Origin: a virus
Length of the DNA: 24,513 nt
Strand: one strand, 5' to 3'
IMG/VR virus record: IMGVR_UViG_3300011115_000942
Location: 1-24,513 of that record
In this document: positions 1 to 24,199 of the stretch, piece by piece
Position numbering within the stretch: the stretch's first letter is position 1
Layout of the letters: every line of letters starts with the position of its first letter
Notes under the pieces: model-generated
The model's database searches: none
What the model saw: the letters and a program-made list of their open reading frames with translations, nothing else
Told to the model about the DNA's origin: nothing
Program-made: the position numbers and the translations under genes

Positions 1-8
1 TTGCGTAG

Positions 9-1181
9 TTGTCGCGTTCCGCGCGCGCTCTGAGGAGAAAAAAGATTCCTAAGCCTGCGCCATCTCCCCGTACCCCGAAAAAAGCGCCGCGTTGTAACTC
101 TGCGGCGTCGGTCGCTGTTCTGCCTGCGGCAACTGAGGCGCTCATTAAGGGCGCTCCTGTCCAGACGGCGGCTGAGTGCATCGGGGCGTTATCCCCAGGC
201 TGCCAATTGCTGGGGATAACGAAGGGTCAGTTTTCCATGCTGGAATTAATCCGGGCTGTCATTGCCCAAATTGGGCCTGCCGATGTCCTTCTGAGTACCT
301 GGACCTTTGGGATCAGGGATGCTGAGATGGCCGCTTGGCTCATCAGGTCCGGGGATATCAAAAGCTTCACCTTTTTGGTGGATCATTCCTTCCCGGTTCG
401 GGAGGCTAAATACTGCCGTCGAATTCGGGAGCTGTTCGGGGCTGAGTCCATCGTGCTCTCAAAGGTCCATGCCAAATTTGCGACTGTCCGGGCTGGTTCC
501 TGGTCGGTCTGCCTGACGGGCTCCATGAACCTGAACAGAAACCCTCGCTGGGAGCACTTCACCCTCTGGGATTCTGCCCCTGCCTGCGACTTCCTGGCGG
601 GCATCCGTGACGAGCTAAAAGCCATGTCGGGATCGGGTTGGGATCCTGAGACCCCGGTGATTGATGCCGCCTTCCAGAAGGCTCTGCAACAGGGCCTCGA
701 TCCTACGATGCTGGCCATTGAGCAGGCCGATGTGCGGGCGGTTGCCCAAAATGAACGGGCTGAGCAGGTCGCTGCTAAGGACGCTGAGCGAGCGGCTGCC
801 AAGGCTGAGCGGGATGCTGCCAGGGAAGCTGCAAAACCTCCCCCTAAGCCTCCTCCTGAGCCCCTGCCCGATCCATCGTCTATAGAGATCCCTGCCTCAG
901 CCTCTGCCATGCTGGAGGCTCAGTACCGGCTGGCTGCCGTGCAGGAGCATGGTGCCAACCAGGATCATTCATGGGTTGCGGCTGGCCAGTTCGCTAGTCT
1001 CAAAGTCAAATTATATCAGGCGCTCATGGCCGCCCGAAAGGCTGAGGGAGCGGGCGAATTAACTGAGGCGCAATTCTTCGCCCAACTTGAGGAGCGGGTC
1101 AAGCGCATGTCTACCGCTCACCTTGAGGTTGCTGTCAGGGAGTACCTGGATCGTATGCCTGGGATGAGGCTCATAGGATGA
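9..1181 (+). CDS. PLD-fold (HKD-type) phage protein, possible nuclease
   Basis: The central part carries a single phospholipase-D-like half motif: H154-A-K156, then G171-S172-M-N174 and a following E182. The usual Asp four residues after Lys is not obvious. Single-HKD proteins such as Nuc and BfiI dimerise to build one active site. A basic, Pro-rich N-terminal tail (about 1-30) comes first. After the PLD part there is an Ala/Glu/Arg-rich probable coiled coil (about 238-275), a Pro-rich linker (about 276-290) and a helical C-terminal domain of about 100 residues. It overlaps the methyltransferase gene by 4 bp (ATGA) and lies just before the large terminase, where a small terminase is usual. 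So it could be a packaging nuclease, a TerS substitute or a restriction-like nuclease; none is proven. The start is uncertain. TTG at 9 is the first possible codon after an in-frame stop, but AGGAG at 33-37 is ideally spaced for a rare ATT start at 45. Confidence 0.6.
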   Translation: MSRSARALRRKKIPKPAPSPRTPKKAPRCNSAASVAVLPAATEALIKGAPVQTAAECIGALSPGCQLLGITKGQFSMLELIRAVIAQIGPADVLLSTWTFGIRDAEMAAWLIRSGDIKSFTFLVDHSFPVREAKYCRRIRELFGAESIVLSKVHAKFATVRAGSWSVCLTGSMNLNRNPRWEHFTLWDSAPACDFLAGIRDELKAMSGSGWDPETPVIDAAFQKALQQGLDPTMLAIEQADVRAVAQNERAEQVAAKDAERAAAKAERDAAREAAKPPPKPPPEPLPDPSSIEIPASASAMLEAQYRLAAVQEHGANQDHSWVAAGQFASLKVKLYQALMAARKAEGAGELTEAQFFAQLEERVKRMSTAHLEVAVREYLDRMPGMRLIG

Positions 1182-1990
1182 CTGCACTCACCCTCTTTGC
1201 AGGTGCAGGTGGTGCTGACAGGGGCATGTCAGACGCTGGCCTCACGCATCACGCTTGCGTTGAGGGCGATGCTACCGCCTACAAAACGCTGGTAGCGGCT
1301 GGGTTTCCTGCGGTCCATGCTTGGATAGGTGGGGAGGGGCCAGAGGGTCAGCGGGCTTGGATCTGGGATGGCACCCCCATTGATCTGCTTTGGGCGTCGC
1401 CACCCTGCCAGCCATACAGCCGCGCGGGGGCCATGCTGGGCACTGACGACCCACGGGACGGCTGGCCTGCCGCTCTGGCAACCATAACTGATGTACGCCC
1501 AACCTGGGTTATTGTTGAGAATGTGGTGGGCTGCCCCGTTGTTGACTGGTCAAGGGCTTTGGAGGCGCTTGGGTATGTCGTGAGCAGTGCCACCCTTGAC
1601 GCTGCCGATTGGGGCTTGCCCAGTCATCGGCGCCGGGTGTTTATTGTGGCTGGCCCAAGGCGCTACCGTTGGCCGACGCCGACACACTACGGGCCTTCTA
1701 TGCCGTATTTCTTGCGGGCGGGGAAGGTGCCTTGGTCAACTTTCATGGGGCATACAATGCCAACGGTCTGCACTACTGACGGGGTGGGCATCGGGGGTGC
1801 AGCATCACGGGATACTGTAGAGCGATTGATTGGCAAGCGCTCTTTTACTGTGGAAGAAGTTGCTCTATTGACGGGGTTTCCAGACGGGTATCCATTTTCT
1901 GGAACATCAGAAGAGATTTACAGGCAAGTCGGAAACTGCGTCGCCCCCATCATGGCTGAGGTATTGGTGCGTGGGATTTTGGGTGGATGA
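1178..1990 (+). CDS. C5-cytosine DNA methyltransferase
   Basis: Transfers methyl groups from S-adenosylmethionine to carbon 5 of cytosine in DNA. The family motifs are present in order: motif I LFAGAGG near residue 6; motif IV PPCQPYS with the catalytic C77; motif VI E114-N-V; motif VIII around R151-R152-R153; motif IX with LTGFPDGY; and motif X with G252-N253-C254-V255. At 270 residues it is small for the family, leaving a short target-recognition region between motifs VIII and IX (about 165-220). The start is fixed by an ATGA overlap with the PLD-fold gene, and its end overlaps the terminase start by about 20 bp. This makes it a translationally coupled member of the packaging operon rather than a free-standing cargo gene. 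It probably protects phage DNA from host restriction, or from the neighbouring PLD-fold protein. The target sequence cannot be read from the protein. Confidence 0.93.
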   Translation: MTALTLFAGAGGADRGMSDAGLTHHACVEGDATAYKTLVAAGFPAVHAWIGGEGPEGQRAWIWDGTPIDLLWASPPCQPYSRAGAMLGTDDPRDGWPAALATITDVRPTWVIVENVVGCPVVDWSRALEALGYVVSSATLDAADWGLPSHRRRVFIVAGPRRYRWPTPTHYGPSMPYFLRAGKVPWSTFMGHTMPTVCTTDGVGIGGAASRDTVERLIGKRSFTVEEVALLTGFPDGYPFSGTSEEIYRQVGNCVAPIMAEVLVRGILGG

Positions 1991-3425
1991 GGAACGCTCC
2001 AAAACCGCTGAGGAGTTGTTCGCCATCGGGGGCGACTACAAAGAGTTGGGCGATCTTGCCCGTCCGAGGCTGACTCAGCCTCAGTTGGATTTTGTTTCCT
2101 GGGCTGCCCCTAAACGCCTCTGGAGGGGTGGGAATACCATCGGGAAAAGCTATGGGCACGCATGGCAAATTGTCCAGCTTGCCCGTAAGAGTAACCCCTG
2201 GGTCAATCCATTTAAGGGCCCCTTAGAGATCATGGTTGCGGGGATCAGCTTTACGCAGATGGACCCCTTGATCAAAAAGCTCTGGGGTCTGCTCCCGAAA
2301 GGCGAGATAGACAAAAAGCTGTACTATCAGGCTGGTAATGGAATCCGGGGCCTCAAAGTGCCTACGGTCGAATTCGTCTCTGGGCCGGGGGCGGGCTCTA
2401 TCATTTATTTCGCGACCTATGACCAGGGCGCGGATCGTATCACCGGGTTTCAGGGGCATCAGTTGAGCTTTGATGAGCCTCCCCCTTATTCGATCTACAA
2501 TGAGGCTAAGCCGCGCCTAAACTCGAAAAGCGGGCATCTCTGCATCACTTTCACCCCTACGCCTGAGAGCCCGGATCTGACCCATATCAGAGAGGAGGTG
2601 GAGGCGGGCGATATCGCTGAGATGCAAACCAGCTACAATTTGGATGCCATCACGATCAAGGGCGGCCTGGTCCCGTGGGCGTGGAAAACTCAGGAGGGCA
2701 TCGATGCAGACATAGCCGCCTATGCAGAGTCCGAGCGGGCCATGCGGCGGGATGGGGCATGGGATCAGATGGTGACCGGGAGGGCGCTCGCTCTCATTGA
2801 TGAGCGGTGTTGGGTGGATGGTCCCTTCCCTCGGTCGCGCCATTGGCGGATCGGGATCGGGGTGGATCACGGTACCCGGCCAGGGCGGCAGTCGGCCTCC
2901 CTGGTCCTGCTGGATCTGGTCTCTGGGGAGGTCTGGATCTTGGACGAGCATCGAACGGGGGAGGTTTCTTCGACTTCGGATGATGCTCGCGGGATTCTGG
3001 CCATGCTCAAAAGGAATGGCATCCCCTGGACGGCGGTGGATCTTTGGGTGGGGGACCGGGCTACCAGAGAGAGCCAATACGGGATCGCAAAGTGCAACGC
3101 GGATCTATTCGTCGAATTGGCCTCAGAGCTTCGGTTGACCGGTCGGGCTGCCAAGGAGCGGGGCCTGAAAATTAAGACGGCCTTCAAAAACCCTGGCTCA
3201 CCGCGTCGGGATGTCGCAAAATTGAACACCCTCGCTCAGAAGGGGCTGCTCAAGGTCCATGCCCAGGCAAAAGGCTTCCGGGAAGCGGTTGCCCTTTGGC
3301 GGGGGGACGCTGCCAGTGCCCATAAGGATCCAGTTGATTCCGCCCGATACCCGATCATGGAATTATTGCGGGCGGCTCATGGTCTGGACGGGTCAACGGG
3401 TGCCTCGTCATTCATCGGCGTCTAA
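1971..3425 (+). CDS. terL: Terminase large subunit (TerL)
   Basis: The packaging motor that pumps DNA into the prohead and cuts the concatemer. The ATPase Walker A motif is G53-G-N-T-I-G-K59-S60, and Walker B is LSF-D168-E169. The C-terminal RNase-H-like nuclease shows acidic residues in the expected settings: GIGV-D299-HG, D357-LWVG-D362 and the late K-D453-PV-D456-SARY block, matching the family's DxxDA-like motif. Its 484 residues are normal for TerL. The GTG start at 1971 lies inside the end of the methyltransferase gene and has GAGGT about 9 bases upstream. A GTG at 1983 is an alternative. No classical small terminase is seen upstream; the PLD-fold protein fills that position. Confidence 0.93.
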   Translation: MGFWVDEERSKTAEELFAIGGDYKELGDLARPRLTQPQLDFVSWAAPKRLWRGGNTIGKSYGHAWQIVQLARKSNPWVNPFKGPLEIMVAGISFTQMDPLIKKLWGLLPKGEIDKKLYYQAGNGIRGLKVPTVEFVSGPGAGSIIYFATYDQGADRITGFQGHQLSFDEPPPYSIYNEAKPRLNSKSGHLCITFTPTPESPDLTHIREEVEAGDIAEMQTSYNLDAITIKGGLVPWAWKTQEGIDADIAAYAESERAMRRDGAWDQMVTGRALALIDERCWVDGPFPRSRHWRIGIGVDHGTRPGRQSASLVLLDLVSGEVWILDEHRTGEVSSTSDDARGILAMLKRNGIPWTAVDLWVGDRATRESQYGIAKCNADLFVELASELRLTGRAAKERGLKIKTAFKNPGSPRRDVAKLNTLAQKGLLKVHAQAKGFREAVALWRGDAASAHKDPVDSARYPIMELLRAAHGLDGSTGASSFIGV

Positions 3426-21278: not shown

Positions 21279-21455
21279 CTAAAAGATGGCGGAGGCCATC
21301 AGGAAGGGGATCAGCATGAGCATGAACCCGGTGAGGACATCGGCTCCGATGGGCATCGGCTGACTGGGCATCGGCTGACTGGTCATCGCCATCTTAAAGC
21401 AGGGGGCGCAATTCCCGATATTGGGGGCGGCTTCTTGGCCACAAGAGCAGGTCAT
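21279..21455 (-). CDS. Cys-rich mini-protein with one membrane segment (58 aa)
   Basis: A 58-residue gene. The start ATG overlaps the RecT stop (ATGA at 21455-21452). The N-terminus has C3-S-C5, then C16-A-P-C19, a small zinc-ribbon or rubredoxin-knuckle-like set of four cysteines. A Met/Pro/Gln segment follows, with a near-perfect repeat SQPMP-SQPMP. The hydrophobic C-terminus VLTGFMLMLIPFLMASAIF is a membrane span or amphipathic helix. The stop is 21 bp before a strong terminator. Coupling, composition and the terminator make it very likely real. Function is unknown; a membrane-tethered metal-binding helper or an inhibitor of a host protein is possible. Confidence 0.75.
   Translation of the reverse strand: MTCSCGQEAAPNIGNCAPCFKMAMTSQPMPSQPMPIGADVLTGFMLMLIPFLMASAIF
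21351..21380 (+). repeat. Two tandem copies of a 15-bp unit in mini-protein gene
   Basis: GGGCATCGGCTGACT occurs twice head to tail at 21351-21365 and 21366-21380. On the minus strand it encodes the SQPMP-SQPMP repeat between the cysteines and the hydrophobic segment. The 15-bp length keeps the frame, so copy number could vary without harm. Confidence 0.85.
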
Positions 21456-22498
21456 TTGTTCAATTCCGCGTGAGTACGCTTCAATTCTGCGAGGTACGCA
21501 GGCCAGTATCCGGGGGCGATCTTGGCTACGTCATCGGTCTCGGAGAGTTTGCGGGCGCGTCGGACTGCCTTAACCTCAGCTTCCGGGAGGGCCTTTTCCG
21601 CCTCCCGGACGGCTTCGACGGGCGGGATCTCGGTGAGGGAGACGCCTAAGGCGTTTTTGGGGGTGGGCTGGGGAGGGGCTTCCTGGACCACTTCGGCCTG
21701 AGCCTCAATGATGCTGGGGTCCAGGCCATTTTGGCGCATCTCCTCAGCCATTGTTGCCAGGGCGGCGCGGGTCTGTTCGGGGCTGGCCTCTTCATCCAAG
21801 AGGGTTGCAAGCCCGATTTGATCAGCCATCGGTACGCGTCCTCCCGTAAACAGGGCACGGATCGCCGTCTTCCGGGCCATAGCTGCATAGTCGGTATTCC
21901 AGGGGCCTCGGTCGCTTTTGTTTTCCGAGCGGTTGCGGCGGGCTTCAATCTCGTCCCTCCAAAGGAATTCAAAGAATTCCGATCCATCCCTCAGCCGGAC
22001 TACGCAGTATGCTCCGATGATGCTCGCGCTTTTGGTCCGGTCAATTCCCTTCCCTGGCTTATGGGTCAGGGTGGGGTGGATGCCGTACCCGATATCGAAT
22101 TCATCCCCTTCCCAGACCACATGAGCATCTACCATAGAGATCATGCCAGAACGGCGGGCCAGGGTGAGATAGCCCTTGTACCCGATCTGGGTCTGGAGCT
22201 GCATCTCCTTATCGAACCCTCCCCCTTCCCGCTTCACTGACATCATCCGGGGAATAAAGTACAACTCCCCCTTGACCGCTCCGGGCTCAAGCTGGAGTTG
22301 GGCGCTGAGGTAGACGGCGCGCATCACGGAAGCCTGGGAGCACTCTTGGATCTTTGGGTTGAGGGCGGCTTCGATGGTGATCAGCCGTAGTAAGCGATTA
22401 CGGACGGTTTCTGGCACCAGGGATCCCAGACCTTTGACGAAGGTTCCGAGCTGGTGCTCAAAAGGGGAACGTTGGGTTTTTGCGATTTCGGTGTTCAT
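21452..22498 (-). CDS. recT: RecT-family single-strand annealing protein
   Basis: A 348-residue protein of the RecT/Redbeta group, which anneals complementary single strands made by its partner nuclease. The typical core is seen: residues about 60-85 (AVYLSAQLQLEPGAVKGELYFIP), IGYKGYLTLARRSG near 105-118, and the WNTDYAAMARKTAIRALF block at 200-217. The C-terminal 100 residues are less conserved and Ala/Glu/Pro-rich (about 260-300), like the host-factor-binding tails of this group. GGAG lies 7 bases before ATG. The start is an ATGA overlap with the preceding 102-residue gene, and the mini-protein gene starts in its stop. It pairs with the YqaJ-like nuclease. Confidence 0.93.
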   Translation of the reverse strand: MNTEIAKTQRSPFEHQLGTFVKGLGSLVPETVRNRLLRLITIEAALNPKIQECSQASVMRAVYLSAQLQLEPGAVKGELYFIPRMMSVKREGGGFDKEMQLQTQIGYKGYLTLARRSGMISMVDAHVVWEGDEFDIGYGIHPTLTHKPGKGIDRTKSASIIGAYCVVRLRDGSEFFEFLWRDEIEARRNRSENKSDRGPWNTDYAAMARKTAIRALFTGGRVPMADQIGLATLLDEEASPEQTRAALATMAEEMRQNGLDPSIIEAQAEVVQEAPPQPTPKNALGVSLTEIPPVEAVREAEKALPEAEVKAVRRARKLSETDDVAKIAPGYWPAYLAELKRTHAELNK

Positions 22499-22803
22499 TT
22501 TTTACTCCAGAGAATTTTTACGGTTTCACCCGATGGGGGTGCTTCGTCGTCTGCAATGCGGATTTTGATGTTCGTCCAGTGGCTTTTGATGTGGGTTTTG
22601 TAGACCGTTCCTTCGGCCTCGTTCCATCCATCCTCAGCCGTTTTTTGCCCCTCATTCATGCCGTCTTGGTACATGCTCCACATGTCCTCAGAGAGGGCAT
22701 GGATCGTATCTGACAGGTACAAGCCTTGGCTGTGGGCATCCAAGAGGTATTTTATCCGGTCTGTAACTGACTCCCGACACACCATATCTTCCGATTTCTT
22801 CAT
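22495..22803 (-). CDS. Protein of unknown function in recombination operon
   Basis: A 102-residue acidic protein between the nuclease and RecT. Helical elements (RIKYLLDAHSQGLYLSDTIHALSEDMWSMY) are followed by a beta-like end (THIKSHWTNIKIRIADD, then SGETVKILWSKK). The frame is open from 22863, but GGAGAG 8 bases before the ATG at 22803, plus an ATGA overlap with the nuclease stop, fix this start. A sliding role as an adaptor, an inhibitor of host exonuclease or a single-strand binder would fit its place, but I see no OB-fold motif or Gam-like coiled coil. Confidence 0.7.
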   Translation of the reverse strand: MKKSEDMVCRESVTDRIKYLLDAHSQGLYLSDTIHALSEDMWSMYQDGMNEGQKTAEDGWNEAEGTVYKTHIKSHWTNIKIRIADDEAPPSGETVKILWSKK

Positions 22804-23816
22804 GGCTTCTCTCCAAATTTGTACAAGTTGAACGTGACGAAAGGACTTCCCTTTTTCTGGCATGCCTCAAAGGCTGCCGGAAAGTCGGTCTTGAGTTTGT
22901 CGATGTCGATGCCGGTTTTTCCTTTGTTGAATTGGGGTTGACCGTAGGGGCTGCCTTTGCCAGAATTGGCAAGCAGGCGGGCCCCATCGGAGATCTGGAT
23001 CAGTTGGTTTTTGAGGACGTCTGCACGTCCCTCAAGGGCTTTCATTTGGCCTTTGATAGCCGCAAATTCCATCAGGAGGCTCAGCTCCTCTCCTGTTGTC
23101 TCGCGGGCGTCTCGCTTCTTGAAAGAGGCTGAAAGAGCACGATTGCAGGCGTCCGAGCCGTCGACCTCAGGTGGGATGCCTCTCACCAGGTGTCGATCTT
23201 GCCACTCTGCCAAGGTGGCCACGATGGAGGATTGTACCGATGTGTCGCGCATAATCCGCACCCATCGCACTTCCAGCCATCCGGCGGCGGGAACGAGGGC
23301 ACACAAGTCCCAATAGGGGAACCCTGAGACTTCCAGGGAGAAATAGACCTGCACTGCATAGTGAGGGGGGATCATGGTGGCGGCGTCATCCGACCATCGA
23401 TCCAGGACAAGGCCCTTCTCTGGGGTCCATGCGCCCGCATCGGTGGCCGTTTTGGCCTCGACTCCCCCTAAAATGCCATCCTGGCGAGAAAAGGCATCGG
23501 GGGAACAGCGCATCCAATCGTGATCATGGTGGTGTAAAACTGCGATACCGGGGCGGCTGCTGAGGTGGATGGCGGGATCGATGAGTTGGACTCGCGCTTC
23601 TTCGGCGTAGTCCTCAAGCACTCTGGGCTCCCACTTCCGCCCGCGTGCCATCGCTGTATTATCGGGGTTAGGCTTGCCTTGTTTCCGCTCAAAAAGCTCC
23701 CACGGTCCGCCGTAGGGGCTGACTCCGAGGGCCATAGCAGCCTCAGAGGCTCCGATGCTCAGGGGGTCTCGGCTGGCAAGCCACGCCTCCCGATTGGGGT
23801 AGATTTTGGGGATCAT
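22800..23816 (-). CDS. YqaJ/lambda-exonuclease-like recombination nuclease
   Basis: A 338-residue PD-(D/E)XK exonuclease that should digest DNA 5' to 3' and supply strands to RecT. Active-site features: SIGASEAAMALGVSPY (helix and loop, residues 20-35) with KW-E63-P, SP-D107-AF, GGV-E120-A-K122 (the D...ExK core) and Q156 in PHYAVQVYFS. Residues about 250-338 form a helical C-terminal region beyond the usual core. The frame is open eight residues further upstream, but the ATG at 23816 is an ATGA overlap with the preceding stop and is preferred. The gene for a 102-residue protein, not RecT itself, follows. Confidence 0.9.
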   Translation of the reverse strand: MIPKIYPNREAWLASRDPLSIGASEAAMALGVSPYGGPWELFERKQGKPNPDNTAMARGRKWEPRVLEDYAEEARVQLIDPAIHLSSRPGIAVLHHHDHDWMRCSPDAFSRQDGILGGVEAKTATDAGAWTPEKGLVLDRWSDDAATMIPPHYAVQVYFSLEVSGFPYWDLCALVPAAGWLEVRWVRIMRDTSVQSSIVATLAEWQDRHLVRGIPPEVDGSDACNRALSASFKKRDARETTGEELSLLMEFAAIKGQMKALEGRADVLKNQLIQISDGARLLANSGKGSPYGQPQFNKGKTGIDIDKLKTDFPAAFEACQKKGSPFVTFNLYKFGEKP

Positions 23817-24199
23817 TTTATCCACCCTTCCCGAACCCACCGATCCCAGTCCGCTCTCAGCAGGTAGGTCTCAGATCCTACCGGGTGGATCCAGTCGATA
23901 CGGTCCGGATCGACTGCCGTTACCCTGCTCGCGTAGGGCTCCCGGATGACGGGGGGCTGGCATTGAAAGCGCATCCCCACAAAGGGCGCTGCCAGATCAG
24001 GGAGGCGGGGGGCTGCCTGGCATGTGGAGGCGTGGGTCTGGATGCAAGTGCAGGCGGGTTTTGCCAGGGCATCGATCTCCCTGAGCAGTTCTTCTGTCTG
24101 CTCAAAAGTCAGGTCAACTTTTTTGGGGAGGGGGAAGCCAACGGCTTCACGGGCCTTTTGCAGTTCCATCCATGCTCTCAGAATCTTTAGGGTGCTCAT
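23813..24199 (-). CDS. Protein of unknown function, recombination operon
   Basis: A 128-residue protein. Helical N-terminus (STLKILRAWMELQKAREAVG) leads to an acidic helix (FEQTEELLREIDALAKP). Then two closely placed cysteines and a third (ACTCIQTHASTC) suggest a small metal-binding or redox patch. The C-terminal half is aromatic and folded (VGMRFQCQPP, DWIHPVGSETYLLRADWDRW). The upstream frame is open to 24271, but ATG 24199 overlaps the previous stop by ATGA. It could be an accessory of the nuclease; I do not recognise a family. Confidence 0.6.
   Translation of the reverse strand: MSTLKILRAWMELQKAREAVGFPLPKKVDLTFEQTEELLREIDALAKPACTCIQTHASTCQAAPRLPDLAAPFVGMRFQCQPPVIREPYASRVTAVDPDRIDWIHPVGSETYLLRADWDRWVREGWIK

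Follow-up and report, generated by a model that had tools for sequence, protein, structure and literature searches.

The window analysed here, meaning the whole stretch of 24,513 nt, is a genome fragment represented by a 24.5 kb virus record. Its left end carries an ORF encoding a phospholipase D (PLD)-fold protein, a C5 cytosine DNA methyltransferase (MTase) and the terminase large subunit (TerL), in that order (Table 1). The stop codon of the first ORF overlaps the start of the MTase gene as ATGA (1178-1181), and the start of TerL overlaps the MTase stop as GTGGATGA, a junction also found between the PLD gene and TerL of L002, the nearest relative of the window (71-77% identity); the first-pass annotation, which described a PLD ORF joined to a complete MTase that in turn overlaps TerL, was thus confirmed on this point. 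Three candidate nuclease aspartates of TerL (D299, D362 and D456) are invariant among five aligned TerL homologues. Downstream of TerL are more genes on the same strand, including an endolysin gene and one with weak matches to major head proteins. On the minus strand, at 21452-23840, a RecT annealing protein and a YqaJ/RecE-like exonuclease form a recombination module facing the structural genes.

Table 1. Features identified at the left end of the window
Feature	Position (nt)	Strand	Extent and basis
Putative cos-like physical genome end	1..27	+	GTCGCGTTCCGCGCGCG motif from nt 11
Likely RBS AGGAG (33-37) and possible rare ATT start (45-47) of the fusion protein	33..47	+	inference from sequence and L233 alignment
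PLD nuclease-TerS fusion ORF (predicted)	9..1181	+	390 aa from TTG 9; probably 378 aa from ATT 45
NucT/BfiI-like PLD nuclease domain	135..644	+	residues ~43-212; phrog_16945, homologue invariants, AlphaFold/Foldseek
Helical/coiled-coil linker	702..833	+	residues 232-275; AlphaFold secondary structure
TerS-like helical domain	834..1175	+	residues 276-389; held-out HMM and BLASTP to L183 27-425
C5 cytosine DNA methyltransferase	1178..1990	+	270 aa; Pfam PF00145; passenger in TerS-TerL slot
TerL	1983..3425	+	probable start GTG 1983 (alternative 1971); phrog_2, alignments, junction sequences

Inspection of ORF 9-1181 found H154-A-K156 (H154 codon at nt 468-470) and G171-S172-M-N174, the PLD half site proposed earlier, and these residues belong to the one HxK...GSxN...E half site in the chain (H154, K156, N174, E182). 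A Pfam search returned no match for the ORF; the PHROGs profile phrog_16945 ("endonuclease") matched residues 42-212 with an E value of 7e-38, and domains of this type carry the database annotation "NucT-like nuclease" in actinophages. In an alignment of 33 homologues, most with 23-38% identity and L002 with 77%, G89, T97, D104, D125, H154, K156, N174, L175, N176, N178 and E182 were invariant. Conservation of H154, K156, N174 and E182 at such divergence rules out a chance match, and the loss of the catalytic H/K in homologues, which the first-pass annotation had named as evidence against its reading, was seen in none of the 33. AlphaFold modelled residues ~43-207 with high confidence as a PLD fold (pLDDT mostly 80-98), followed by the helical linker, and Foldseek matched the model to SauUSI, the NgoAVII R-protein, NucT and further PLD proteins (E about 1e-4), and to the NucT-like protein of Arthrobacter phage Galaxy (E 4e-14). 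By fold and active site, residues ~43-212 are a NucT-like single-HxK PLD nuclease, the activity being predicted. Since there is one HxK per chain, two chains are expected, by analogy with BfiI and NgoAVII, to form a dimer that shares one active site.

The identity of the C-terminal domain surfaced once the window's own TerL family was gathered. Queries with the C-termini of the window and L002 alone had found nothing else in known phages, viral contigs and genomes. Scanning with the TerL family collected loci L182-L259, in whose phages the position immediately 5′ of TerL, that of the terminase small subunit (TerS), is taken by a small gene encoding about 100-200 aa. An HMM built only from L182, L183 and L184, all stand-alone TerS-position genes and with the window held out, matched window residues 276-389 (E 7e-12), L002 (2e-13) and L114 (6e-4); reversed sequences, run as a control, gave no match. 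BLASTP of the window C-terminus against L183 found 39% identity over 69 aa, and the window TerL was 55-57% identical to TerL of phages with a stand-alone TerS-position gene. Because residues 276-389 are homologous to a stand-alone gene in the TerS position, we conclude from the sequence comparisons that ORF 9-1181 is a nuclease-TerS fusion.

The name TerS is used here on the grounds of position, size and layout, a weak helix-turn-helix (HTH) in some relatives and homology to this gene set; the curated TerS profiles of Pfam and PHROGs recognise neither the C-terminal domain nor its stand-alone relatives. The small-gene relatives L186, L196, L211 and L256 have the classic TerS layout, an N-terminal HTH (a weak match) ahead of the same helical domain. 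No HTH match was obtained in the window ORF with Pfam, PHROGs or the model, and the PLD domain occupies that place. As TerS of gene transfer agents (GTA) also has no HTH, we regard its absence as a variant feature and not as disqualifying. The C-terminal domain was modelled at low confidence as a helical hairpin (pLDDT 62), for which Foldseek found no significant match. Comparison by hhalign revealed no similarity to the TerS types found in other PLD phages (P27, HTH-type and Nu1-type), but these types, compared with each other as a control, were also unmatched, so the negative result carries no weight. The missing part of the genome may hold another TerS.

Clear PLD-TerS fusions were found in the window, L002, L114 and L233, and L149 has an extension at the same place as the TerS part with a weak match. 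In L002, L114 and L149 the fusion stop overlaps the TerL start, placing the fusion directly upstream of TerL as is usual for TerS; in the window this adjacency is interrupted by the MTase gene, coupled on both sides. Within the window's TerL family, L009 has PLD and TerS as two separate genes. L233 encodes a 338-aa PLD-TerS fusion and L248 a 103-aa TerS alone, the TerS parts being 80% identical and the downstream gene similar in both, so that one TerS occurs with and without the nuclease head and the pair forms a natural comparison.

Contig edges suggest that this gene lies at the end of the phage genome. Of the 71 contigs that are 10 kb or longer, 13 start within 300 nt 5′ of the PLD gene, where about 1 would be expected, and none ends within 300 nt 3′ of it. 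The window's TerL family includes 35 contigs of this length, and 22 of them start within 800 nt 5′ of TerL (1.6 expected). About 18 related contigs have a GTCG(N)TTTCGCGCGCG-type motif at a distance of 3-11 nt from their edge (L182, L196, L197, L198, L200, L205, L210, L215, L220, L223, L225/L226, L233, L239, L240, L247, L248 and L254), and its version in the window begins at nt 11 (Table 1). As the terminal motif is common to these contigs, the left edge of the window is probably where the genome physically ends, in a cos-like manner, which would make PLD-TerS the first gene. A separate TerS hidden just 5′ of the contig edge, as the gene order of L036, L148 and L165 would allow, is unlikely given the terminal motif at the edge of the window.

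The same motif bears on the start codon. Since nt 1-27 correspond to the conserved genome-end motif, TTG at 9 is probably not the true start of the fusion ORF. A good Shine-Dalgarno sequence is followed by ATT at 45, which aligns with the GTG start of L233, and this ATT is a possible rare start codon. In L114, positions 1-44 are Nextera adapter sequence at the contig end, so the apparent ORF start there is an artefact; the real ATG lies further in, behind AGGAG.

Scans for the PLD family found 115 loci, which fell into 87 clusters at 90% identity. TerL was present within 5 kb of the PLD gene in 67 of the 87 clusters, and TerS or TerL was near in 81; among control C5-methyltransferase loci, which were shorter, TerL was found in 1 of 60. 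The TerL genes beside PLD belong to at least four Pfam classes: PF03354/PF20441 (TerL_ATPase/TerL_nuclease), PF03237/PF17289 (Terminase_6), PF04466 (Terminase_3) and PF05876/PF20454 (GpA). The commonest order is PLD, TerS (PF05119-like), TerL; the order is TerS, PLD, TerL in L036, L148 and L165 (the TerS of L165 called by eye), TerS adjoins PLD on the opposite strand in L008 and L031, and in Arthrobacter phage Andrew the PLD-TerS pair (gp58-gp59) is kept together with TerL beyond the genome end. Given these TerS/TerL neighbours and the contig starts just 5′ of PLD, the PLD nuclease gene belongs to the packaging cassette and lies close to the genome end. The idea that it substitutes for an HNH packaging nuclease was weakened by the finding of HNH genes in 15 of 37 PLD records. 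At L128:1362-5276 a PLD homologue lies near an SNF2/DEAD helicase gene, with no terminase detected, possibly a SauUSI- or NgoAVII-like context. At L046:4598-5032 a small PD-(D/E)xK resolvase-like protein (by eye) is encoded immediately 5′ of a related TerL and may represent a further nuclease fold occupying this slot.

The main rival to a packaging role is that the PLD protein is a homing-like or competing endonuclease hitch-hiking at a mobile-nuclease hot spot, its adjacency to the terminase and the TerS fusion being by-products. The region upstream of the terminase is a described hot spot for several endonuclease classes (PMC10448857), the related loci L242, L021, L036 and L129 carry HNH genes nearby, and the L233/L248 pair demonstrates that a PLD head can be gained or lost. 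However, PLD keeps its place next to TerS in several terminase classes, whether upstream or downstream of it, inverted, or far from TerL as in Andrew. Homing genes also favour polymerase, RNR and capsid genes (PMC10448857), a much less exclusive association than that of the 81 of 87 PLD clusters near TerS/TerL. The in-frame TerS fusion in several divergent phages and the strictly kept active site further suggest a shared function, and we consider a hitch-hiking nuclease rather unlikely.

The MTase gene was at first taken as the obligate partner of the PLD protein. It matches the Pfam DNA_methylase family (E 1e-35), with motifs I, IV, VI, VIII and X present by eye. In L002, however, the PLD ORF runs straight into TerL, and the 13.9 kb contig yielded no related MTase; L114 and L149 likewise have no MTase between the PLD ORF and TerL, and no other C5 MTase adjoins a PLD gene in the 87 clusters. 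Homologues without the MTase, which the first-pass annotation had itself listed as counting against its proposal, therefore exist. Within the window's TerL family, TerS abuts TerL (gap of at most 60 nt) in 34 of 48 loci, and other loci hold modification genes in the slot: a C5 MTase at L210:436-1230, absent in L205 (TerS 97% and TerL 96% identical), an N6/N4 MTase at L213:333-1217, and a Mom-like gene at L189:414-857 (match below the cut-off), absent in L190 (TerS 91% and TerL 97% identical). An apparent HNH endonuclease gene (by eye) lies between TerS and TerL at L242:729-1367. Because L002 has no MTase and the slot holds other modification genes elsewhere, the C5 MTase is an optional insertion or passenger in the TerS-TerL slot; the METHYLTRANSFERASE is not a partner of PLD. 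Most likely it protects phage DNA from host restriction, modifying it before packaging.

A phage-encoded restriction-modification-like pair, in which the C5 MTase would shield phage DNA and the PLD protein would cleave DNA lacking the mark, accordingly appears very improbable. PLD-fold restriction enzymes such as BfiI do exist, the NgoAVII/CglI R-proteins occur with methyltransferases (the characterised methylase-linked PLD R-protein is NgoAVII, not NgoFVII as had been supposed), and the window shows translational coupling between its C5 MTase and PLD genes. N6/N4-type MTases are also located next to or near PLD in unrelated terminase cassettes, at L013:6205-7497 (a ParB_N fusion), L033:3466-4908, L043:2818-4923 and L175:2-352. 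Yet the MTase is missing from the closest relatives, MTase class and position vary among loci, and the slots of L210 and L213 contain MTases although their TerS has no PLD head. BfiI, the NgoAVII/CglI R-protein and SauUSI differ in having a B3-like or other target-recognition domain, with ATPases in NgoAVII and SauUSI; the Pfam search for a DNA-binding C-terminal domain in the window protein, suggested by the first-pass annotation, found neither a B3 nor any other target-recognition domain, and the C-terminus is TerS-like instead. To our knowledge, none of these three proteins is known as a TerS fusion. A shade less probable still is that PLD-TerS degrades host or competing-phage DNA for nucleotides or rival exclusion, with the TerS part only a tether, for although the catalytic domains of BfiI- and NucT-type PLD nucleases are relatively non-specific, nucleases that degrade host or rival DNA are usually early genes, and the genome-end position beside TerL and the TerS fusion point to packaging.

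The reading we consider likely is that the protein is a terminase small subunit in which a dimeric metal-independent PLD nuclease, acting at the genome end, has replaced the usual N-terminal DNA-binding head or been added on top of it. The PLD fold and invariant active site, the homology of the C-terminal domain to TerS-position genes, the recurrence of the fusion, the tight linkage of the nuclease family to TerS and TerL and the genome-end position were observed in the sequence comparisons and models. The TerS part would oligomerise and dock on TerL and thereby bring the PLD dimer to the genome end, there to nick, cut or trim ends together with the TerL nuclease; the C5 MTase would modify phage DNA ahead of packaging, against host restriction. 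Of the earlier suggestion of a TerS replacement with modification-guided cleavage, the PLD nuclease in the TerS position stood, with a C-terminus homologous to a TerS-position gene, and the guidance by methylation is without support. A bolder version, which we advance tentatively and hold to be possible but doubtful, has TerS itself as a site-specific or end-processing nuclease at cos, in a motor whose TerS and TerL carry unrelated nucleases, of PLD and RNase H fold respectively, and with DNA marking coupled to packaging; the TerS-TerL slot would then repeatedly capture C5 MTase, N6/N4 MTase and Mom-like genes.

TerS is described as an HTH DNA-binding head, an oligomerisation hairpin and a C-terminal TerL-binding segment (PMC6854486, PMC9611059), and as a recognition subunit with no enzymatic activity. 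The window ORF resembles it in its slot upstream of TerL (with a passenger gene between), its helical C-terminal domain and its homology to TerS-position genes, and differs in having a PLD nuclease domain where the HTH is expected. The NucT-like nucleases of actinophages, such as Gordonia phage BetterKatz gp1 and Andrew gp58, are of the same family and lie near TerS/TerL at or near the genome end, but are free-standing (about 210-290 aa), and TerS is encoded separately. The closest functional precedent is the HNH protein gp74 of HK97, an extra phage nuclease beside terminase and cos that stimulates cos cleavage by TerL (Kala et al. 2014, cited in PMC9410871, PMC10448857); it has an unrelated fold and is a separate protein, and many of these phages have HNH genes as well as PLD. 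In phage P1, pac methylation controls cleavage of the packaging site (Sternberg and Coulby 1990, as cited in PMC12707154). That is adenine methylation, and the window offers no evidence of a C5 mark controlling packaging. No description of a PLD or NucT nuclease with terminase came up in literature searches limited to open-access papers.

A nuclease-headed TerS contrasts with the view that TerS serves for recognition and has no enzymatic activity. The way in which terminases produce specific genome ends is as yet only partly understood. The L233/L248 pair offers a clean system for the role of accessory nucleases in packaging. The TerS-TerL slot recurrently gains DNA-modification genes, and near-identical neighbours with and without them exist. 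The finding also provides a role hypothesis for the gene next to the terminase genes that annotations of many sequenced actinophages call a "NucT-like nuclease".
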